Assembly: GCA_937916515.1 (NCBI GenBank)
Contig: CALFSX010000235.1
Coordinates: 1 to 64,000, forward strand
DNA: 64,000 nucleotides
Source of the DNA: an uncultured Planctomycetaceae bacterium
GTDB taxonomy: Bacteria > Planctomycetota > Planctomycetia > Planctomycetales > Planctomycetaceae
Reading direction: 5' to 3'
The notes under the pieces are model-generated. The model worked only from the letters and a program-made list of their open reading frames with translations, made no database searches and had not been told where the DNA came from. Each line of letters starts with the position of its first letter. The first letter of the stretch is position 1. Position numbers and translations under genes: made by a program. This document shows, piece after piece, positions 20,877 through 36,971 of the stretch.

Positions 20877-20948
20877 GGATCGGTAGCTGAGTTGGCTTAG
20901 CGCCGGTTTGAAGCACCGGAGACGAGGATTCGAACGCCTCCCGATCCT
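20877..20948 (+). tRNA. tRNA-Phe (GAA), possibly degenerate
   Basis: A 72-base cloverleaf. The acceptor GGATCGG/CCGATCC is perfect, the anticodon stem CCGGT/ACCGG is perfect, and the loop TTGAAGC gives anticodon GAA. Two features are odd: the near-universal G53-C61 pair of the T stem is A-G, and position 37 is G where bacterial tRNA-Phe normally has A. The D stem is only three pairs. CCA is not encoded. It may be a decayed or noncanonical tRNA. Confidence 0.75.
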
Positions 20949-21176
20949 CTTGATCACCGCTCAGGATGCGAAGACAGCAAGCCTTGACCAGCAAGCAAAC
21001 TGGTCAACTGACGCCAATCAACAGCCGCGATCGTAGCGGATTCTGACTGCCGTCCTGCGCGAACAAAACACTTCATTTGCTGAAATGAACAGCGAAATCG
21101 ACTTACACAATAGCAATAGCTCGAACACTTCCATGAACAGTCCTTTCTATAAACAGATACCCAGTCTCCATCAATT

Positions 21177-21248
21177 GGGGCTGTGGTGTAATGGCAGCAC
21201 AGCGATCTTTTAAATCGCAAGGTAAGGGTTCGACCCCCTTCAGCCCCA
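21177..21248 (+). tRNA. tRNA-Lys (TTT)
   Basis: Acceptor GGGGCTG/CAGCCCC, anticodon stem GCGAT/ATCGC with loop CTTTTAA (anticodon TTT), and T stem AAGGG/CCCTT with loop TTCGACC are all intact. The D stem is short (GTG/CAC). The discriminator is A and CCA is not encoded. Confidence 0.93.
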
Positions 21249-21341
21249 TTGCTTCAAACGAAGCGATTATCATCCAGGCTTCGTATTTGACGCATAGCCA
21301 ACGAACTTCGACTTTTCCAGGAACAACAGTCCCGTTCCAAG

Positions 21342-21414
21342 CGGCATGTAGCTCAGTGGTAAGAGCGGCGTCCTTATAAGGCGTGAGTTGTGGGTTCGAT
21401 TCCCACCATGCCGA
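21342..21414 (+). tRNA. tRNA-Ile (TAT anticodon)
   Basis: Acceptor CGGCATG/CATGCCG and D stem AGCTC/GAGC are normal, and T stem GTGGG/CCCAC is perfect. The anticodon loop CTTATAA gives TAT, reading AUA. Most bacteria read AUA with a CAT-anticodon tRNA modified to lysidine, so a TAT tRNA is uncommon. The anticodon stem contains two G-T pairs. Confidence 0.88.
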
Positions 21415-21480
21415 AAACCGAACGCAATCAACCTGAATGGTCGCCCCGACGTCAGGAATTAAATCAGCAAACGACATTAC

Positions 21481-21551
21481 GCGCCCATGATGTAGCGGTA
21501 GCCTGCTGCCTTGCCATGGCGGAAGTGCCGGTTCAACTCCGGCTGGGCGCT
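21481..21551 (+). tRNA. tRNA-Gly (GCC), D stem disrupted
   Basis: The acceptor GCGCCCA/TGGGCGC and T stem GCCGG/CCGGC are perfect, and the anticodon loop TTGCCAT gives GCC. The D arm (ATGTAGCGGTAGCCT) cannot form a normal stem, and the anticodon stem has a T-G pair. It is either decayed or an unusual array tRNA. CCA is not encoded. Confidence 0.75.
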
Positions 21552-21573
21552 CTCGGAAACAACGAAGACATTC

Positions 21574-21777
21574 TGCGGTGTGGCCCAACAGTAAGGCAGC
21601 TCCCTGTTAAAATCTTACTCAAAACGATGGGCGCACGGTGCGCGCATGTTGACCGTAGCGACAACGGAGCGGCTCGGCGATTTTAGCGGTCCATGTCTTC
21701 CAGCCAACCACGCCACCGGGTCAAGGGCGAAGCCCTTGTTAAGGAGTTGATTGCAGGTTCGAATCCTGCCACCGCAG
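21574..21777 (+). tRNA. tRNA-Asn (GTT) interrupted by a 132-bp insert
   Basis: The 5' part (21574-21610) and 3' part (21743-21777) join into a complete 72-base tRNA-Asn with no mismatch in the acceptor (TGCGGTG/CACCGCA) or T stem (GCAGG/CCTGC). The joined anticodon arm is GCTCC-CTGTTAA-GGAGT, anticodon GTT. Between them lies dispersed element copy B (21611-21742). The hexamer TGTTAA occurs at both junctions, so the insertion point could be anywhere in the 3' side of the anticodon loop, including the 37/38 position. The gene is either killed by a mobile repeat or carries a spliced intron. Confidence 0.85.
21611..21742 (+). repeat. Dispersed ~130-bp element, copy B, inside tRNA-Asn
   Basis: Matches copies A (180-311) and C (23146-23271, reverse) across its length: TCTTACT start, CGCACGGTGCG apex, GCGACAACGGAG and GGCTCG block, ACGCCACCGGG block and terminal hairpin CAAGGGC-GAA-GCCCTTG. 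It is bounded by TGTTAA on each side of the tRNA-Asn anticodon arm. It encodes no protein. Confidence 0.9.
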
Positions 21778-21851
21778 CTGGCAGGCGTTCCAGATAGATG
21801 CGTGCAGACAAACACCCGCATCTTAAATAACGCCACCAAATTCTATTTGAC

Positions 21852-21943
21852 GGAAAAGCAAGCCGATTCGGCTAAGGCAGCTGTTTCGAAAACAGTCGAG
21901 CATGTGCAAACATGCCTTGGGGGTTCAACTCCCTCCCTTTCCG
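21852..21943 (+). tRNA. tRNA-Ser (CGA)
   Basis: A class II tRNA of 92 bases with a long variable arm (GCATGT pairing with ACATGC). The anticodon stem GCTGT/ACAGT holds loop TTCGAAA, anticodon CGA. The acceptor GGAAAAG/CCTTTCC has one A-C mismatch at pair 6-67, a mild sign of decay. Discriminator is G, as in serine tRNAs. Confidence 0.88.
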
Positions 21944-21970
21944 CCTTCTCAACTTCGCATTCCACTTCGT

Positions 21971-22043
21971 GTGTCTCTGGCCGAGCGGCAAGGGTACCTG
22001 GTTTCCAACCAAGGTCAGGCGCGTTCGACTCCCGCGCGACACT
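21971..22043 (+). tRNA. tRNA-Gly (TCC), several stem mismatches
   Basis: The anticodon loop TTTCCAA gives TCC, and discriminator U fits glycine. The acceptor GTGTCTC/GCGACAC has a mismatch at pair 6-67, the anticodon stem has C-A at 28-42, and the T stem has C-C at 52-62. Three mismatched pairs make a functional tRNA doubtful. Confidence 0.7.
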
Positions 22044-22122
22044 TGCAGGGCAGCGGCCAGCTTCGCCAGCATCTTCAACCAAGGTCGCAGAAGTTCCTGC
22101 CGCCAGTTTAATTCACGTTAAT

Positions 22123-22197
22123 TGCCGAGTAGTTTCTGTTGGTAGAAATCCGTGACTTTGAATCACGAGTTCGCTGGTTCGATTCCTGCCTCGGCAA
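22123..22197 (+). tRNA. tRNA-Gln (TTG)
   Basis: Acceptor TGCCGAG/CTCGGCA and anticodon stem CGTGA/TCACG are perfect, and loop CTTTGAA gives TTG. The T stem GCTGG/CCTGC has one T-T mismatch. No CCA is encoded. It is the last tRNA of the array; the 250 bp that follow before the next gene show nothing recognisable. Confidence 0.88.
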
Positions 22198-22451
22198 ATT
22201 ATCTTTGTGCGACTGGAGACACCGCAATTCCACTTTAGTCATAAAATCAAACACAAAGAAAAAACGCTTACGATTAACGACGCTCTACACCGGAAATCAC
22301 CTCAGAATGGAGCAAGCCAGCAGCCGAAGTTTCGGACAGAAATATTTCTTCAGCCACTTCGTCCTGTTTCCTTGTCGTCAAAACTCTGCCTCGCTATCTT
22401 CAGTGGTAAAAAAACGCCTCACAGCACAATACCCGGTAAGGGAAAAACCGC

Positions 22452-23145: not shown

Positions 23146-23271
23146 AACAAGGGCTTCGCTCTTGCCCCAGTGGCGTAACATGCGAGAGAACGTGGAAAGT
23201 TCTAATCGTCGAGCCACTCCGTTGTCGCTGCGAAAATGACGCGCACCGTGCGATCACCATTCTAAGTAAGA
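23146..23271 (-). repeat. Dispersed ~130-bp element, copy C
   Basis: The reverse complement matches copies A and B from TCTTACT to the terminal GCCCTTGTT. The terminal hairpin has one mismatch (CAAGAGC against GCCCTTG). The first hairpin keeps the CGCA-CGG-TGCG apex although its base differs from copy A, with pairing partly retained. As in copy A, the terminal hairpin faces the 3' end of the neighbouring gene. Confidence 0.85.
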
Positions 23272-23331
23272 CGCAAAAGCGTGAGTTTTTCCTCACCCAC
23301 CGGCACCAACAGCAATCAGCTTTCTTTAGCC

Positions 23332-29868: not shown

Positions 29869-30345
29869 CGCAAGCCTTTACGCACTTGTTTAAACGTTCA
29901 GGTCTTCTGAGTTCACCCGATCAGAGTTCACCAAGAAGGTTACACAAATCACTTCCATCATCGCAGCCACGCTGCAAAGTAGAATGCCATTCTTCGGCAA
30001 ATTTTATCGGGGCAGCTTGCAGACAACTACGCAACAGAATTCGATGAACTCACCTGCATGCAAAATGGGGCACGTCAGGTGATATATTCTTCCCTCCAAA
30101 GCGAATTCAAGACTTCACACAAACAAATGAAGGAGATCGTTCGACAGTATTTTTCTCTGAGTTGAAGGTCTGCAGCGTCTATCCAACGCGCATCTGATTA
30201 TGAGGCGACACGGCCACTTCGGTGGCCCAATCATGGCACACATGTCGCTCACTTCAGAACGGTCACCGGCATAAAAAACTGAGCATCGCTTCAGCATTTC
30301 AGCCTGCAACCCACTGCAGTTCAGTTATTACGCCTGAGGCCAAAT
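29869..30345. other. Spacer with no recognised gene
   Basis: About 480 bp between the sulfatase start and the tRNA-Leu terminator. No frame on either strand has family features. The sulfatase promoter is presumably near its left end, but no clear -35/-10 pair was placed. Confidence 0.4.
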
Positions 30346-30390
30346 CAAAAAAGGCCAATGAATTACGGGAAATCCGTGAATTCATTGACC
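30346..30390 (-). terminator. Terminator of tRNA-Leu
   Basis: On the minus strand GGTCAATGAATT pairs with AATTCATTGGCC (one G-T and mismatch-tolerant inner region), followed by TTTTTT. It begins 17 bp after the tRNA-Leu 3' end. Confidence 0.85.
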
Positions 30391-30406
30391 TTCAGTTTCG
30401 CAAAAG

Positions 30407-30490
30407 TGCTCTGGAGAGGACTCGAACCTCCACGGGGTTACCCCCACATGCCCCTCAAGCATGCGTGTCTACCAATTCCACCACCAGAGC
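30407..30490 (-). tRNA. tRNA-Leu (GAG)
   Basis: A class II tRNA of 84 bases. Acceptor GCTCTGG/CCAGAGC is perfect, the anticodon stem CATGC/GCATG holds loop TTGAGGG (anticodon GAG), a variable arm TGGGGGTAACCCC is present, and the T stem GGAGG/CCTCT is normal. Discriminator A fits leucine. No CCA is encoded. Confidence 0.96.
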
Positions 30491-30981
30491 AAATTTTTTA
30501 TACGTTGGCTTCGGGAATTAACACTCTGCTCCTCGAAACCAAACTCTTGAGTTATCGCCATCTGGCGGCTAACGCGAGAGCCGGGAAGGTTACAGCTGAT
30601 TGCGTTTGGCTTCAACCTCCAGAACGACCTTAGTCTCATCAGCTCGTGTTTTTGCTCAGCAGAACCGAAATCTCCGCTACGCTTCGCACAAGTACCAGCA
30701 TCTTCAACGAATCAGACGAGCAACTTTGCGAACCCGACTGTTAGTGTCCGGAAAGACCTCTTCTTCCGCTATGGCGGAAGAAAAGAACCAAACCGCTGTC
30801 CTGATGAATCCCCGTAACATACGACAGATGTTGAACACAACCTGTTTACTCTCAACACGTTACGCTCCACGAAAAAGGCAAACACGTTCCGAATTCGACT
30901 GTTGGCATCAATTGTGCTTGTCAGGGCAGGGTAAGCGTTTACGCGATTGACCACCCCCGCAATCTTCGACCGGCACCCTCA
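30491..30981. other. Spacer upstream of fliK
   Basis: About 490 bp. It contains a 9-bp perfect hairpin (TTCTTCCGC with GCGGAAGAA, near 30762-30783) without a T-run. No convincing coding frame. It should carry the promoter of the flagellar genes and of tRNA-Leu. Confidence 0.4.
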
Positions 30982-32805
30982 GTGACTTCTGTTGCAATTT
31001 CAAACCTGATTCCAAGCCCCCAAAACGTTGGCACTCCGGATTCGTCCAGGCCTGCGAAAGTGGCACAGACCGAGTCTACTCGCTCAAATCGTCGTAACCG
31101 CGACGTTGCTGGCGACGAACAGGACGAGGTCTCGTTTGAATCAGTTTTACAGCAACAACTGCCGCCTGAACCACGAACCACCGAAGTAAAGACGACATCA
31201 GTCACAGAAGGGGACAGCCCAACAGACTCAAACTTAGCAGCCACAAGTCTGGAACCGCCACAGAACCGGACTGCTAATTCAGGCGAAGCGGTTGAACTGC
31301 TAAGCGACAACGCTGCCGCAACGTCGATACCTACGCCGACGACCGAAACTGTTAGCGAAGCAGTCGCCAATCCGATCAACCAAACTCCGATCAACCAACG
31401 CATCGAATTACCTGCGTCAGACGTCCTGTCGAACTCAACCATTGTCGACAGCGAGTTAAGTGAAACGACATCAACTTCGTTGTCGTTGTCGCCCAATTCC
31501 GGTGTCGACCGTGCAGTGGACCAAACAGCGACGGTTGCAACAGACGTCAGCACCTCAGAATCGACTGATCTGGAACAAGTCACTTCCGACCGCACCAATT
31601 CGTTTCCGGCCGTAGTATCAACATCCGAGATGAATACCGGGAAAGACAAACTGCAGAACAGTGGCACCAACGAAATACCGGTTGCTGGCTCGTTCGCGGA
31701 ATCAACTGAAGTAGCGCAATCTGATTTGCGTCTGCCAGATAATCCTCAGACAAACAGCGTCCCCCCAACCGCACCTAAATCTGCATTCAACGAAATATCC
31801 GCTCAACAAACGACTATCGCAAAGACAAGCGTCAGCATTGAGACTCCCAATGCGATTGATCTAAAGGCCAACCAACAAACGCAAACTCAAGTTCTGCCAA
31901 ACGATGAACTGGCTGCCTCTGCAGAGAACAAAGCAACGGCCAAGTTCGATGCATCAACAACATCCGGTGATACCAGCGAGGTAACGGTTGGCCCGGTTGA
32001 AGCAGTTCAGGAGTCCGAAACCATAGCCTCCGCGGAAGACTCACCACTACGACGCGAACAGAAAACAGACCAGCGAACCGGACAGAAAACACTGCGTGGC
32101 ACAGATGCCACATCTCGGCAACAAGCACAACCAGACACCTCAGCAACGCAGTCGACCGCGCAAACACCGCTTTTGGAATCGATCACTCGCGGCCTTGATT
32201 TGTCGCAAAGAAAAAAATCAGACCACGAAGGAATCTCCATTGGCCAGGAACTGACGTCCAGCGTCCACGAATCTTCAACGTCCCAAACCCTTTCCATCAA
32301 CAACAACATCGATGCACCGACGAGCACTGTTTCGCTAACGACAGCCACAACGCGAAGTGAACGTCCAACGCCATTGCTGCAACAGGTGTTTGACGCTGTC
32401 AAAGACGGCATCAGCACAAACGATAATTCACGGTCAATCACTGTTCGGCTACGTGACCCATATGTTGGCGACTTACAAATTCATCTTCAGCGTCAGGATG
32501 ACAGCACACTTGTGAAAGTTGCCGCAGCAGACGACGTCATTTTCGCAATGCTCTCGTCTCGATCCGGCGAACTTGGAGAACAGCTGAAAGCAAGTGACCT
32601 GCAGCTACAGGAAATCTCACACATCTCAGGCAGCCTTTCCGATCAATCTCGTTTCGACCAGGCAGCATCGGGGCACCAGGAACGACAAAGTTCAGCAGAA
32701 ATGCAACGACAACATCACAGATCATTTCGCGCTCGGCAGCCATCAACCGCACAGGGTGACGTTCCAGACGCCGTCCTCAACACCAAGATCAGCTTTCGCG
32801 CTTAG
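30982..32805 (+). CDS. fliK: Flagellar hook-length control protein FliK
   Basis: A 607-residue secreted ruler that stops hook growth and switches export specificity. The first ~450 residues are low-complexity, rich in Ser, Thr, Asn, Gln and Glu, as is normal for FliK rulers. The C-terminal Flg_hook domain is at about residues 480-560: ITVRLRDPYVGDLQIHLQ, then VFAML-type and ELGEQLKASDLQLQEI segments. The start is a GTG. flgD follows after 23 bp, supporting an operon. Confidence 0.85.
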   Translation: MTSVAISNLIPSPQNVGTPDSSRPAKVAQTESTRSNRRNRDVAGDEQDEVSFESVLQQQLPPEPRTTEVKTTSVTEGDSPTDSNLAATSLEPPQNRTANSGEAVELLSDNAAATSIPTPTTETVSEAVANPINQTPINQRIELPASDVLSNSTIVDSELSETTSTSLSLSPNSGVDRAVDQTATVATDVSTSESTDLEQVTSDRTNSFPAVVSTSEMNTGKDKLQNSGTNEIPVAGSFAESTEVAQSDLRLPDNPQTNSVPPTAPKSAFNEISAQQTTIAKTSVSIETPNAIDLKANQQTQTQVLPNDELAASAENKATAKFDASTTSGDTSEVTVGPVEAVQESETIASAEDSPLRREQKTDQRTGQKTLRGTDATSRQQAQPDTSATQSTAQTPLLESITRGLDLSQRKKSDHEGISIGQELTSSVHESSTSQTLSINNNIDAPTSTVSLTTATTRSERPTPLLQQVFDAVKDGISTNDNSRSITVRLRDPYVGDLQIHLQRQDDSTLVKVAAADDVIFAMLSSRSGELGEQLKASDLQLQEISHISGSLSDQSRFDQAASGHQERQSSAEMQRQHHRSFRARQPSTAQGDVPDAVLNTKISFRA

Positions 32806-35243: not shown

Positions 35244-36455
35244 TCAGAAGCTGACAATCGAACCCGGCTGAATAGCATTTTTCGGCAACGGATGCTGGTC
35301 ATCGAACACTCTCATTGTTTCGACACTTTCAAGCACCGTTCCGCTTTCGTCGAACATTCCGGTTTGTGAATTGACAAGTCCCGTGGAATCAAGTTTCAGG
35401 TGTTTCACCATAAATGGGTACATGCCCTGACGTTTCTTAACCTGGTAGCCGTGATCTTCTTCGGGGAAATGGCGATTTTCTACGTTGTCAGCGTTTCCGA
35501 ACAATTTGTAAACGCTTTGAATGTACGGAAATTCAACCTCGGGAGTGTTCTTTGTCCAGTCTCCTCCAACCGATACCAGAAGCATCGGGCGAGGAGCCGC
35601 CAACGCGGCGATTTCTACGTTGCTTGTTTCCAAAGTCGCAGTCTTGTGGATCGGCATGCCACTTTCACAAGTGCAGCCTCCAAAGAAATGCGCGGAAACC
35701 ATGACGACTGGTACTGACACTTTCACTCGTTCGTCAATCGCTGTCAGAAGGAATGTTTGAGTTCCACCGCCCGAACACCCGGTGACAGAAATTGAATCGG
35801 AATCGACATCGTTTAGCGACTGCAGAAAATCGATCGCTCGAACGCTGCTCCAGGTTTGTAGCTTCATCACCTGCGGATGCTTATGACTCCAGCCGTACGC
35901 TTCAGAGTCTCCAAAGCCAACCATATCGTAAGAAAAAACGACTGCCCCCATTCTGGCCAGTGTCGCACATCGATATTGCTGATCGTGCCGCAGTCGCCCG
36001 CCATCGCGGCCAGTGGCATGCCCGTGAGGACACAGCACCCCGGGAAACGGTCCGGTGCGATCAATCGGACGATACAGATTCCCATAGACCAGGAACCCTG
36101 GGCGCGCTTCAAACGCAACGGATTCGACCGAATAGCCAGGATAGACGCGACGCTTATGAATGATTGAATTCAGTGGCGTACTTTCGGGCAGTGGATTCAG
36201 CTGCACCCCTGTCAATATCTGCTGCCGAATCGCGGACGCTCGCAGCTTCCATTCGCTTAAGTTCGAATAAGTGCTCGCGAATCGATCCAGCTGACGTACG
36301 GCGTCGGCTTCTGATTGATAATTGCCAACACACAAAGTTACTGCAGGTAACTTCAGTTCCTCTTTCTGCTGCTGCTGCGCGCTGATCTGAGCCGCAGAAA
36401 TGGTGACCAACAGAAGTGGCAGAATCGAAAAGGGTATCGATCGACGAAGAATCAT
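35244..36455 (-). CDS. Secreted alpha/beta-hydrolase (acetylxylan-esterase-like)
   Basis: A 403-residue secreted hydrolase. A signal peptide covers residues 1-25 (MILRRSIPF to ISAQ). Features of the serine-esterase fold: an oxyanion-region PHGHATGRD, the nucleophile elbow GCSGGGTQ with the catalytic serine, and a late EEDHGY histidine. The serine motif with three glycines and the GRLRHDQQYRCATLARMG segment resemble the planctomycete acetylxylan-esterase-like hydrolases that often accompany sulfatases. The substrate is inferred only. The upstream in-frame start adds 46 residues before the signal peptide and is not used. Confidence 0.82.
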   Translation of the reverse strand: MILRRSIPFSILPLLLVTISAAQISAQQQQKEELKLPAVTLCVGNYQSEADAVRQLDRFASTYSNLSEWKLRASAIRQQILTGVQLNPLPESTPLNSIIHKRRVYPGYSVESVAFEARPGFLVYGNLYRPIDRTGPFPGVLCPHGHATGRDGGRLRHDQQYRCATLARMGAVVFSYDMVGFGDSEAYGWSHKHPQVMKLQTWSSVRAIDFLQSLNDVDSDSISVTGCSGGGTQTFLLTAIDERVKVSVPVVMVSAHFFGGCTCESGMPIHKTATLETSNVEIAALAAPRPMLLVSVGGDWTKNTPEVEFPYIQSVYKLFGNADNVENRHFPEEDHGYQVKKRQGMYPFMVKHLKLDSTGLVNSQTGMFDESGTVLESVETMRVFDDQHPLPKNAIQPGSIVSF

Positions 36456-36971
36456 AACGAGGCTTTCATTGGGAAGAGCTGCAATAAAGTACGTGTCTGT
36501 TCGTCGGTAAATGTTCGTCGACAAAAGGCAAAGCAGACTGACTGCAGAGTGAATTCGGGGACTTATGAACGCAGTTGCGTTTGGGGTGGGCAAAAATCAA
36601 GTGTGACGTACTGCGTAAATGACTATCTGTGTAATAGAGAACAAATTGCGCTAACAGGCAACCATTCAGGTATTTCCAGGCATCGAGCCCCACGGAAATC
36701 CGCCGCTCGGGCAGCGAGTTGCTGTAAGCGCATCGCCGAAAACCTTACGCAACCGGCAGACTTCGATCGGCACAGTTTACCAGAACTTCGCGACACTCGC
36801 TGAGCGTACTCAACATTAAAAGTAACTGACGTTGAGGCTGGAATTATTCCGAGGTGGGCCAACCGGGCGTGATACGTTTCGTTGGCTTTCAGATTGACAC
36901 CATACGATTCACTTCCCAAAAGCTGCGGGCCATTTCCTTCATCACTAATTGTTCCGGAATGCAAAACATCC
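36456..36971. other. Divergent spacer with no recognised gene
   Basis: About 515 bp between two divergent secreted-protein genes. A 116-codon minus-strand frame overlaps the next gene and has no family features, so it is not called. Promoters for both genes are expected here. Confidence 0.4.

Follow-up and report, generated by a model that had tools for sequence, protein, structure and literature searches.

Two kinds of intron are known from the anticodon loop of tRNA genes: group I introns in bacteria and bulge-helix-bulge (BHB) introns in archaea. An insert at the same place was analysed here in a tRNA-Asn(GTT) gene of an uncultured Planctomycetaceae bacterium (assembly GCA_937916515.1), carried on a window of 64,000 nucleotides (contig CALFSX010000235.1, positions 1 to 64,000, forward strand). 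It is unlike these introns in that it matches no intron family, is accompanied by an intact second gene and belongs to a high-copy dispersed repeat. Very probably, this tRNA-Asn(GTT) gene was a redundant member of a tRNA array and was inactivated by a 128-bp non-autonomous repeat, which was inserted at the TTAA of the anticodon loop (tRNA positions 35-38) and left TTAA on both sides. Observed directly were the split gene, the repeat itself, its approximately 496 core matches, a second tRNA-Asn that is intact and, in relatives, intact tRNA-Asn genes within the arrays.

Small bacterial repeats comparable to this one are treated in sections of PMC3733652. As outlined there, miniature inverted-repeat transposable elements (MITEs), such as ERIC, NEMIS and Nezha, are 70-300 bp long and have terminal inverted repeats as a feature (PMC3733652). 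The element is like MITEs in its length of 128 bp, the absence of evident coding, its hundreds of copies and an apparent short target duplication; the high-copy, non-coding and dispersed character of a MITE was found in its 496 core matches over many contigs. It is unlike MITEs in having no terminal inverted repeats and in the various combinations of its 5' and 3' parts. Repetitive extragenic palindromic (REP) sequences are described in that account as palindromes of 20-40 bp with GTAG or CGTC tags, known also from Planctomycetes (PMC3733652). The element is likewise palindromic and of high copy number, but it is 128 bp rather than 20-40 bp long, inspection of the consensus showed neither a GTAG nor a CGTC tag at the base of its terminal hairpin, and it bounds no Y1 gene. 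Rickettsia palindromic elements, in the account given there, are palindromic repeats inserted in genes (PMC3733652). This likeness extends to a palindromic repeat within a gene; the difference is that complete copies were not found in open frames above control and that the gene split is one for a tRNA.

Structure of the split tRNA-Asn gene

The original prediction, made from the letters alone, had described a tRNA-Asn gene split in its anticodon arm by a repeat, and this was confirmed by a cmscan fit and by ARAGORN on the joined halves, which place the break within the anticodon loop. By using cmscan on 21500-21850, positions 1-71 of tRNA model RF00005 were aligned across 21574-21777 with a large anticodon-loop insertion (42.2 bits; gathering score 29). 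The split gene was not called in whole-window ARAGORN and cmscan runs, and the stretch was miscalled as tRNA-Pro(cgg) by ARAGORN with introns allowed. The gene and its insert comprise the following features:

21574-21610, + strand: 5' part of tRNA-Asn(GTT), with acceptor, D arm, 5' half of the anticodon stem and loop to position 38; anticodon at 21606-21608 (cmscan RF00005; ARAGORN on joined halves)
21607-21610, + strand: left TTAA at positions 35-38 of the tRNA, interpreted as one of two target copies (sequence; repeat consensus boundary)
21611-21738, + strand: dispersed 128-bp element, oriented like the tRNA; identity to the 111-copy consensus, 93% (nhmmer envelope; identity)
21739-21742, + strand: right TTAA, read as second copy of the duplicated target (sequence; right-junction profile of copies)
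21743-21777, + strand: 3' part of tRNA-Asn, with 3' half of the anticodon stem, variable loop, T arm, acceptor and discriminator G21777 (cmscan; ARAGORN)

When 132 bases were taken out, 37 + 35 = 72 bases remained (21574-21610 and 21743-21777), which were typed by ARAGORN as tRNA-Asn(gtt) and given a length of 73 bases. The joined molecule has seven acceptor, five anticodon (one G-T) and five T-stem pairs and a 3-bp D stem (ARAGORN). The prediction of a 72-base tRNA with perfect acceptor and T stems and a near-perfect anticodon stem is borne out, all three stems being complete, but the molecule is not canonical: its D-loop is without the GG that is present in the compared tRNA-Asn genes of relatives and in the second gene of the host. 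The predicted 132-bp repeat needs a similar correction. Removal of 132 bases does restore the tRNA, but the element proper, by its nhmmer consensus bounds (21611-21738), is 128 bp long, and TTAA makes up the rest. TGTTAA stands at each of the two junctions, as had been noted. With a single TTAA kept, the joined halves again have a 7-base anticodon loop (ARAGORN); by tRNA rules, the empty loop had one TTAA.

According to the mechanism proposed here, a non-autonomous repeat would insert at TTRR sites, in this case the TTAA of the anticodon loop. The TTAA pair would be a 4-bp target duplication, the element would have moved as DNA by means of an enzyme supplied elsewhere, and the split gene would make no functional tRNA.

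Whether this gene is the only tRNA-Asn of the host bears directly on its reading. One branch of the original prediction had held that the insert of a sole tRNA-Asn must leave the RNA, and a genome search for another intact tRNA-Asn(GTT) had been named beforehand as a test. The host assembly, an 8.33-Mb draft in 343 contigs, was searched with the tRNA model (150 of 310 candidates scored); all 57 matches over the cut-off were typed by ARAGORN. The only Asn among them was an intact tRNA-Asn(GTT) gene on contig C23 (C23:732-804, - strand, 67.6 bits), with which the premise of that branch was lost. A few extra ARAGORN tRNA calls in the same stretches, beyond the 57, included no Asn, and no joined copy of the window tRNA-Asn was found elsewhere in the host genome by a pattern search. 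Matches of tRNA length to the C23 gene (82-92% identity) were obtained in six of the seven same-genus genomes, the seventh (G005) giving only a partial match of 80%. These matches show, on sequence grounds, a tRNA gene of the lineage; synteny is not claimed, because the search matched the tRNA and not its flanks.

The split gene is itself a member of an array:

20877-22198, + strand: tRNA array of Phe, Lys, Ile(TAT), Gly(GCC), split Asn, Ser(CGA), Gly(TCC) and Gln (ARAGORN; same-genus arrays with intact Asn)

Same-genus genomes also have tRNA arrays, the order of which is partly shared, and an intact tRNA-Asn(GTT) lies inside the arrays of all seven (ARAGORN). Ser(CGA), Gly(TCC) and Gln follow it as in the window in four of the seven (G001, G002, G004 and G007), two of which (G004 and G007) have Gly(GCC) directly before it (ARAGORN). 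The joined window tRNA-Asn is 58-64% identical to eight array genes (seven same-genus genomes and G021) and 55% identical to the C23 gene. Identity of the neighbours to their counterparts is 88-93% for Gly(GCC) in five of six genomes (55% in G006, where the compared gene is maybe not the counterpart), 81-82% for Gln (4/4 genomes) and 74-81% for Ser(CGA) (4/4 genomes). The split gene is therefore more diverged than its neighbours, and part of this divergence probably predates the insertion, because the anticodon stem still pairs.

The dispersed repeat and its target

The insert is a copy of a 128-bp repeat with the consensus AGTCTTACTC ... GGGCGAAGCCCTTG. The core pattern CGACAACGGAGNGGCTCGGCGA (up to three mismatches) was matched 249 + 247 = 496 times in the 8.33-Mb genome and a reversed control pattern not at all, so chance is excluded for the repeat; a right-end pattern gave 243 + 219 genome matches and its control 0. 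A similarity search of the host genome with the insert, in which 40 of 584 first-look candidates were scored, gave at least 44 matches. Two further copies in the window, already pointed out from the letters, were confirmed by using nhmmer:

178-309, + strand: second window copy of the dispersed element
23148-23273, - strand: third window copy of the dispersed element

Among the 111 complete copies, 27 are closer to the consensus than the insert is (93%), and its nearest relative among the other 110 is 92% identical (94% by local BLAST).

TTAG is the commonest flanking tetramer (47/104 left; 47/104 right). Truncated copies, flanks running off the stretch and copies adjoining another unit were left out of the tetramer counts (39/104 and 43/111; the 43 comprise 30 after the hairpin unit termed module A, nine after another copy and four before another copy). 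Of 65 isolated copies, 22 have the same tetramer on both flanks, where shuffling leads one to expect 12.9 (p 0.0004). When the boundaries were drawn again from a profile lacking the left tetramer, which gave 68 isolated copies, 15 of the 25 best-scoring copies had identical tetramers, against 9.7 expected (p 0.002); the 65-copy and 68-copy sets overlap and are not independent tests. This flank pattern suits a 4-bp target duplication decaying with age, though it is incomplete.

The prediction that a mobile repeat lies in the tRNA stands, but its further claim that the repeat uses a tRNA target was too strong. Rejoined flanks of the 111 complete copies contained one tRNA, the window tRNA-Asn. 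By our own arithmetic (57 tRNA genes of ~75 bases, 8.33 Mb, 496 copies) about 0.26 tRNA insertions are expected by chance; one is therefore no evidence of targeting, and targeting was rejected, with 1/111 empty sites a tRNA, about chance level.

The repeat is mosaic in make-up. Module A, a different hairpin unit ending GCCTCG/TTAG (slash, junction), stands directly before 30 of the 111 complete copies, and its pattern has 128 matches across the host genome. Some copies of the repeat are in tandem, joined at CTTG/TTAG. All of 20 stretches at right-end sites outside the listed core matches fit the repeat profile, three of them (L201, L206 and L207) with the 3' part only; in L206, two shortened tandem units of ~88 bp each, without the 5' third of the element, were seen at 1377-1552. 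The consensus was matched at E 1e-5 or better in at least seven of 150 family genomes, host included (up to five candidates scored per genome). In G005, the left 41 bases of the element are followed by a different hairpin unit, and a scan of named genomes with the 5' part of the repeat gave two contigs, both from metagenome-assembled genomes of Planctomycetes.

The consensus element folds better than shuffles (z -2.39), with a 9-bp hairpin near its left end and a 7-bp hairpin at its right end; for single copies the effect is weak (the 60 best-scoring of the 111 average z -0.77). No covariation support for the structure was obtained with RNAalifold on 111 copies, which gave nine nearly invariant pairs. 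As for coding, 98 of 102 complete copies tested lie outside any long joint open frame, as in controls; removal of the copies gave such frames in 4/102, against 4-6/102 in five shifted controls.

The tRNA event is in itself unremarkable: a spare tRNA gene very probably put out of use by a dispersed repeat of high copy number. As yet the repeat family may lack a description; none of it, or of a tRNA split by it, was found in open-access literature judged from listed titles and the starts of abstracts. Tentatively, the ~500 copies could represent a class of small, mosaic mobile DNA of planctomycetes that has not been described before. Such DNA would lack terminal inverted repeats, have exchangeable 5' and 3' parts and a 3' hairpin with a final G, and insert at TTRR with a 4-bp duplication by means of an enzyme to which repeats of this kind have not yet been linked. 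The clearest empty-site case for that class is the split tRNA. Its pre-insertion sequence is known from tRNA rules and so helps to fix the ends and the target (TTAA/TTAG) of the 500-copy family, and with ends and target fixed, the question of what moves the repeat becomes testable.

Candidate enzymes for movement of the repeat

Movement as single-stranded DNA by a Y1 transposase (IS200/IS605 or REP-associated), with TTAG cleavage sites left and right and with hairpins placed close to the left end and at the right one, appears unlikely. IS200/605 elements carry hairpins at their ends, and the 9-bp and 7-bp consensus hairpins are placed accordingly; hairpins by the cleavage tetramers are present in the consensus fold, without covariation support. 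The host genome has six Y1_Tnp (PF01797) matches. None of the six loci (2.0-3.4 kb each) is bounded by the repeat, however, and only one has any match to it, two partial copies at the edge of the stretch. The best Y1 gene stands among different hairpins, and the correlation between left and right tetramers is not predicted by the Y1 mechanism. For the IS110 type, one Transposase_20 (PF02371) match was obtained in the host genome, with no repeat in its 3163-base locus. Both Y1 / IS200-605 and IS110 partners were rejected because no element bounded by the repeat was found with PF01797 and PF02371.

A small Y1 transposase gene (143-amino-acid open reading frame) was observed in L186 at 1300-2240. 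It stands among hairpins of the CCGGCTTTAGCCGG type, and its start region occurs again downstream; this locus looks like a separate REP-like system.

It is very doubtful that the repeat is an integron-type cassette or attC site moved by an IntI integrase. The right ends, G/TTAGG in the right-junction profile, resemble the consensus of the attC R'' box, and head-to-tail copies are joined CTTG/TTAG. IntI is present in the host genome: two of 11 integron-integrase hits, with 335.7 and 295.2 bits, exceed the TIGR02249 cut-off, and the contig of the 335.7-bit hit also carries two of the repeats in tandem. The cut-off is exceeded in none of 14 control genomes. Against this, an R' box is absent. AAC with at least six of seven bases complementary to the copy's own right end occurs in at most 3/111 copies at any position, and with five of seven in at most 7/111. 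G is not fixed immediately before the left tetramer (21/68), and simple G/TT exchange does not predict the correlation between left and right tetramers. None of five integrase loci examined has a copy of the repeat, and on contig C142 over 4 kb lie between the gene and the copy closest to it. The integron attC reading was therefore rejected for want of an R' box, despite the G/TTAGG ends, tandem units and two IntI genes.

The two integrase genes lie in L235 (C142:10258-11085, - strand) and L236 (C43:7128-7799, - strand, at a contig end). No cassette array was seen on C142; of the dispersed repeat, this contig carries three complete copies and a partial one.

Insertion weighed against splicing and misassembly

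Several points tell against inactivation by an inserted mobile repeat. Terminal inverted repeats were not found by inspection of the consensus, the AGTCTTACTC end and the reverse-complemented CAAGGGCTTC end being different. Flanking tetramers differ in 10 of the 25 best-scoring copies, and identity does not exceed chance in the next 25 (5/25; 3.2 expected, p 0.17) or the last 18 (2/18; 2.2 expected, p 0.73). No repeat-bounded enzyme was found in the families searched, Y1 and IS110; other transposase families were not searched. The assembly is a draft, and the tRNA search scored just under half of its candidates. Compared with shuffles, the split gene as a whole has a somewhat better fold (z -1.80). 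Finally, its tRNA stems still pair but for one D-stem position, like those of a working gene, which is unsurprising at up to 7% divergence (own rough estimate, P ~0.2).

The last two points touch on an RNA-level intron, in which transcription of the gene would be followed by excision of 132 bases, at positions 37/38 or at another point of TGTTAA, to give a working tRNA. Removal of 132 bases indeed restores a tRNA with paired stems, TGTTAA stands at both ends of the insert, and both the split gene and the consensus element fold better than shuffles. Splicing is not required, however, because an intact tRNA-Asn(GTT) exists at C23. The insert alone folds no better than shuffles (z 0.20), single copies fold weakly on average, and removal of copies joins open frames no more than in controls. 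The group I or group II intron suggested for a covariance search was not found: the insert region gave no match to either model, and none of seven cmscan matches on 21500-21850 (E up to 10) was to an intron or ribozyme family. On genomic evidence (the second tRNA-Asn, the tRNA-Asn genes of relatives, the scan for intron families and the test for joined open frames) the intron was rejected and is highly improbable. The chief argument for a novel tRNA intron in bacteria falls away.

Misassembly of a repeat into a tRNA is scarcely credible: although the draft has 343 contigs and some copies stand at contig ends (for example, C290 and C142), the insert is interior to a 68,965-base contig, with array tRNA genes on both sides and TTAA at both junctions, and its sequence is unlike all 110 other complete copies compared.

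Inactivation of a redundant gene by the inserted repeat is accordingly the reading retained. Groups of tRNA genes were seen in the host genome at window 20877-22198, at C260 ~30285-31372 and at C297 ~36090-36620, and these mostly repeat the anticodons of scattered tRNA genes. A tRNA-SeC gene was observed in a further stretch of the host genome (L075, 192-284).
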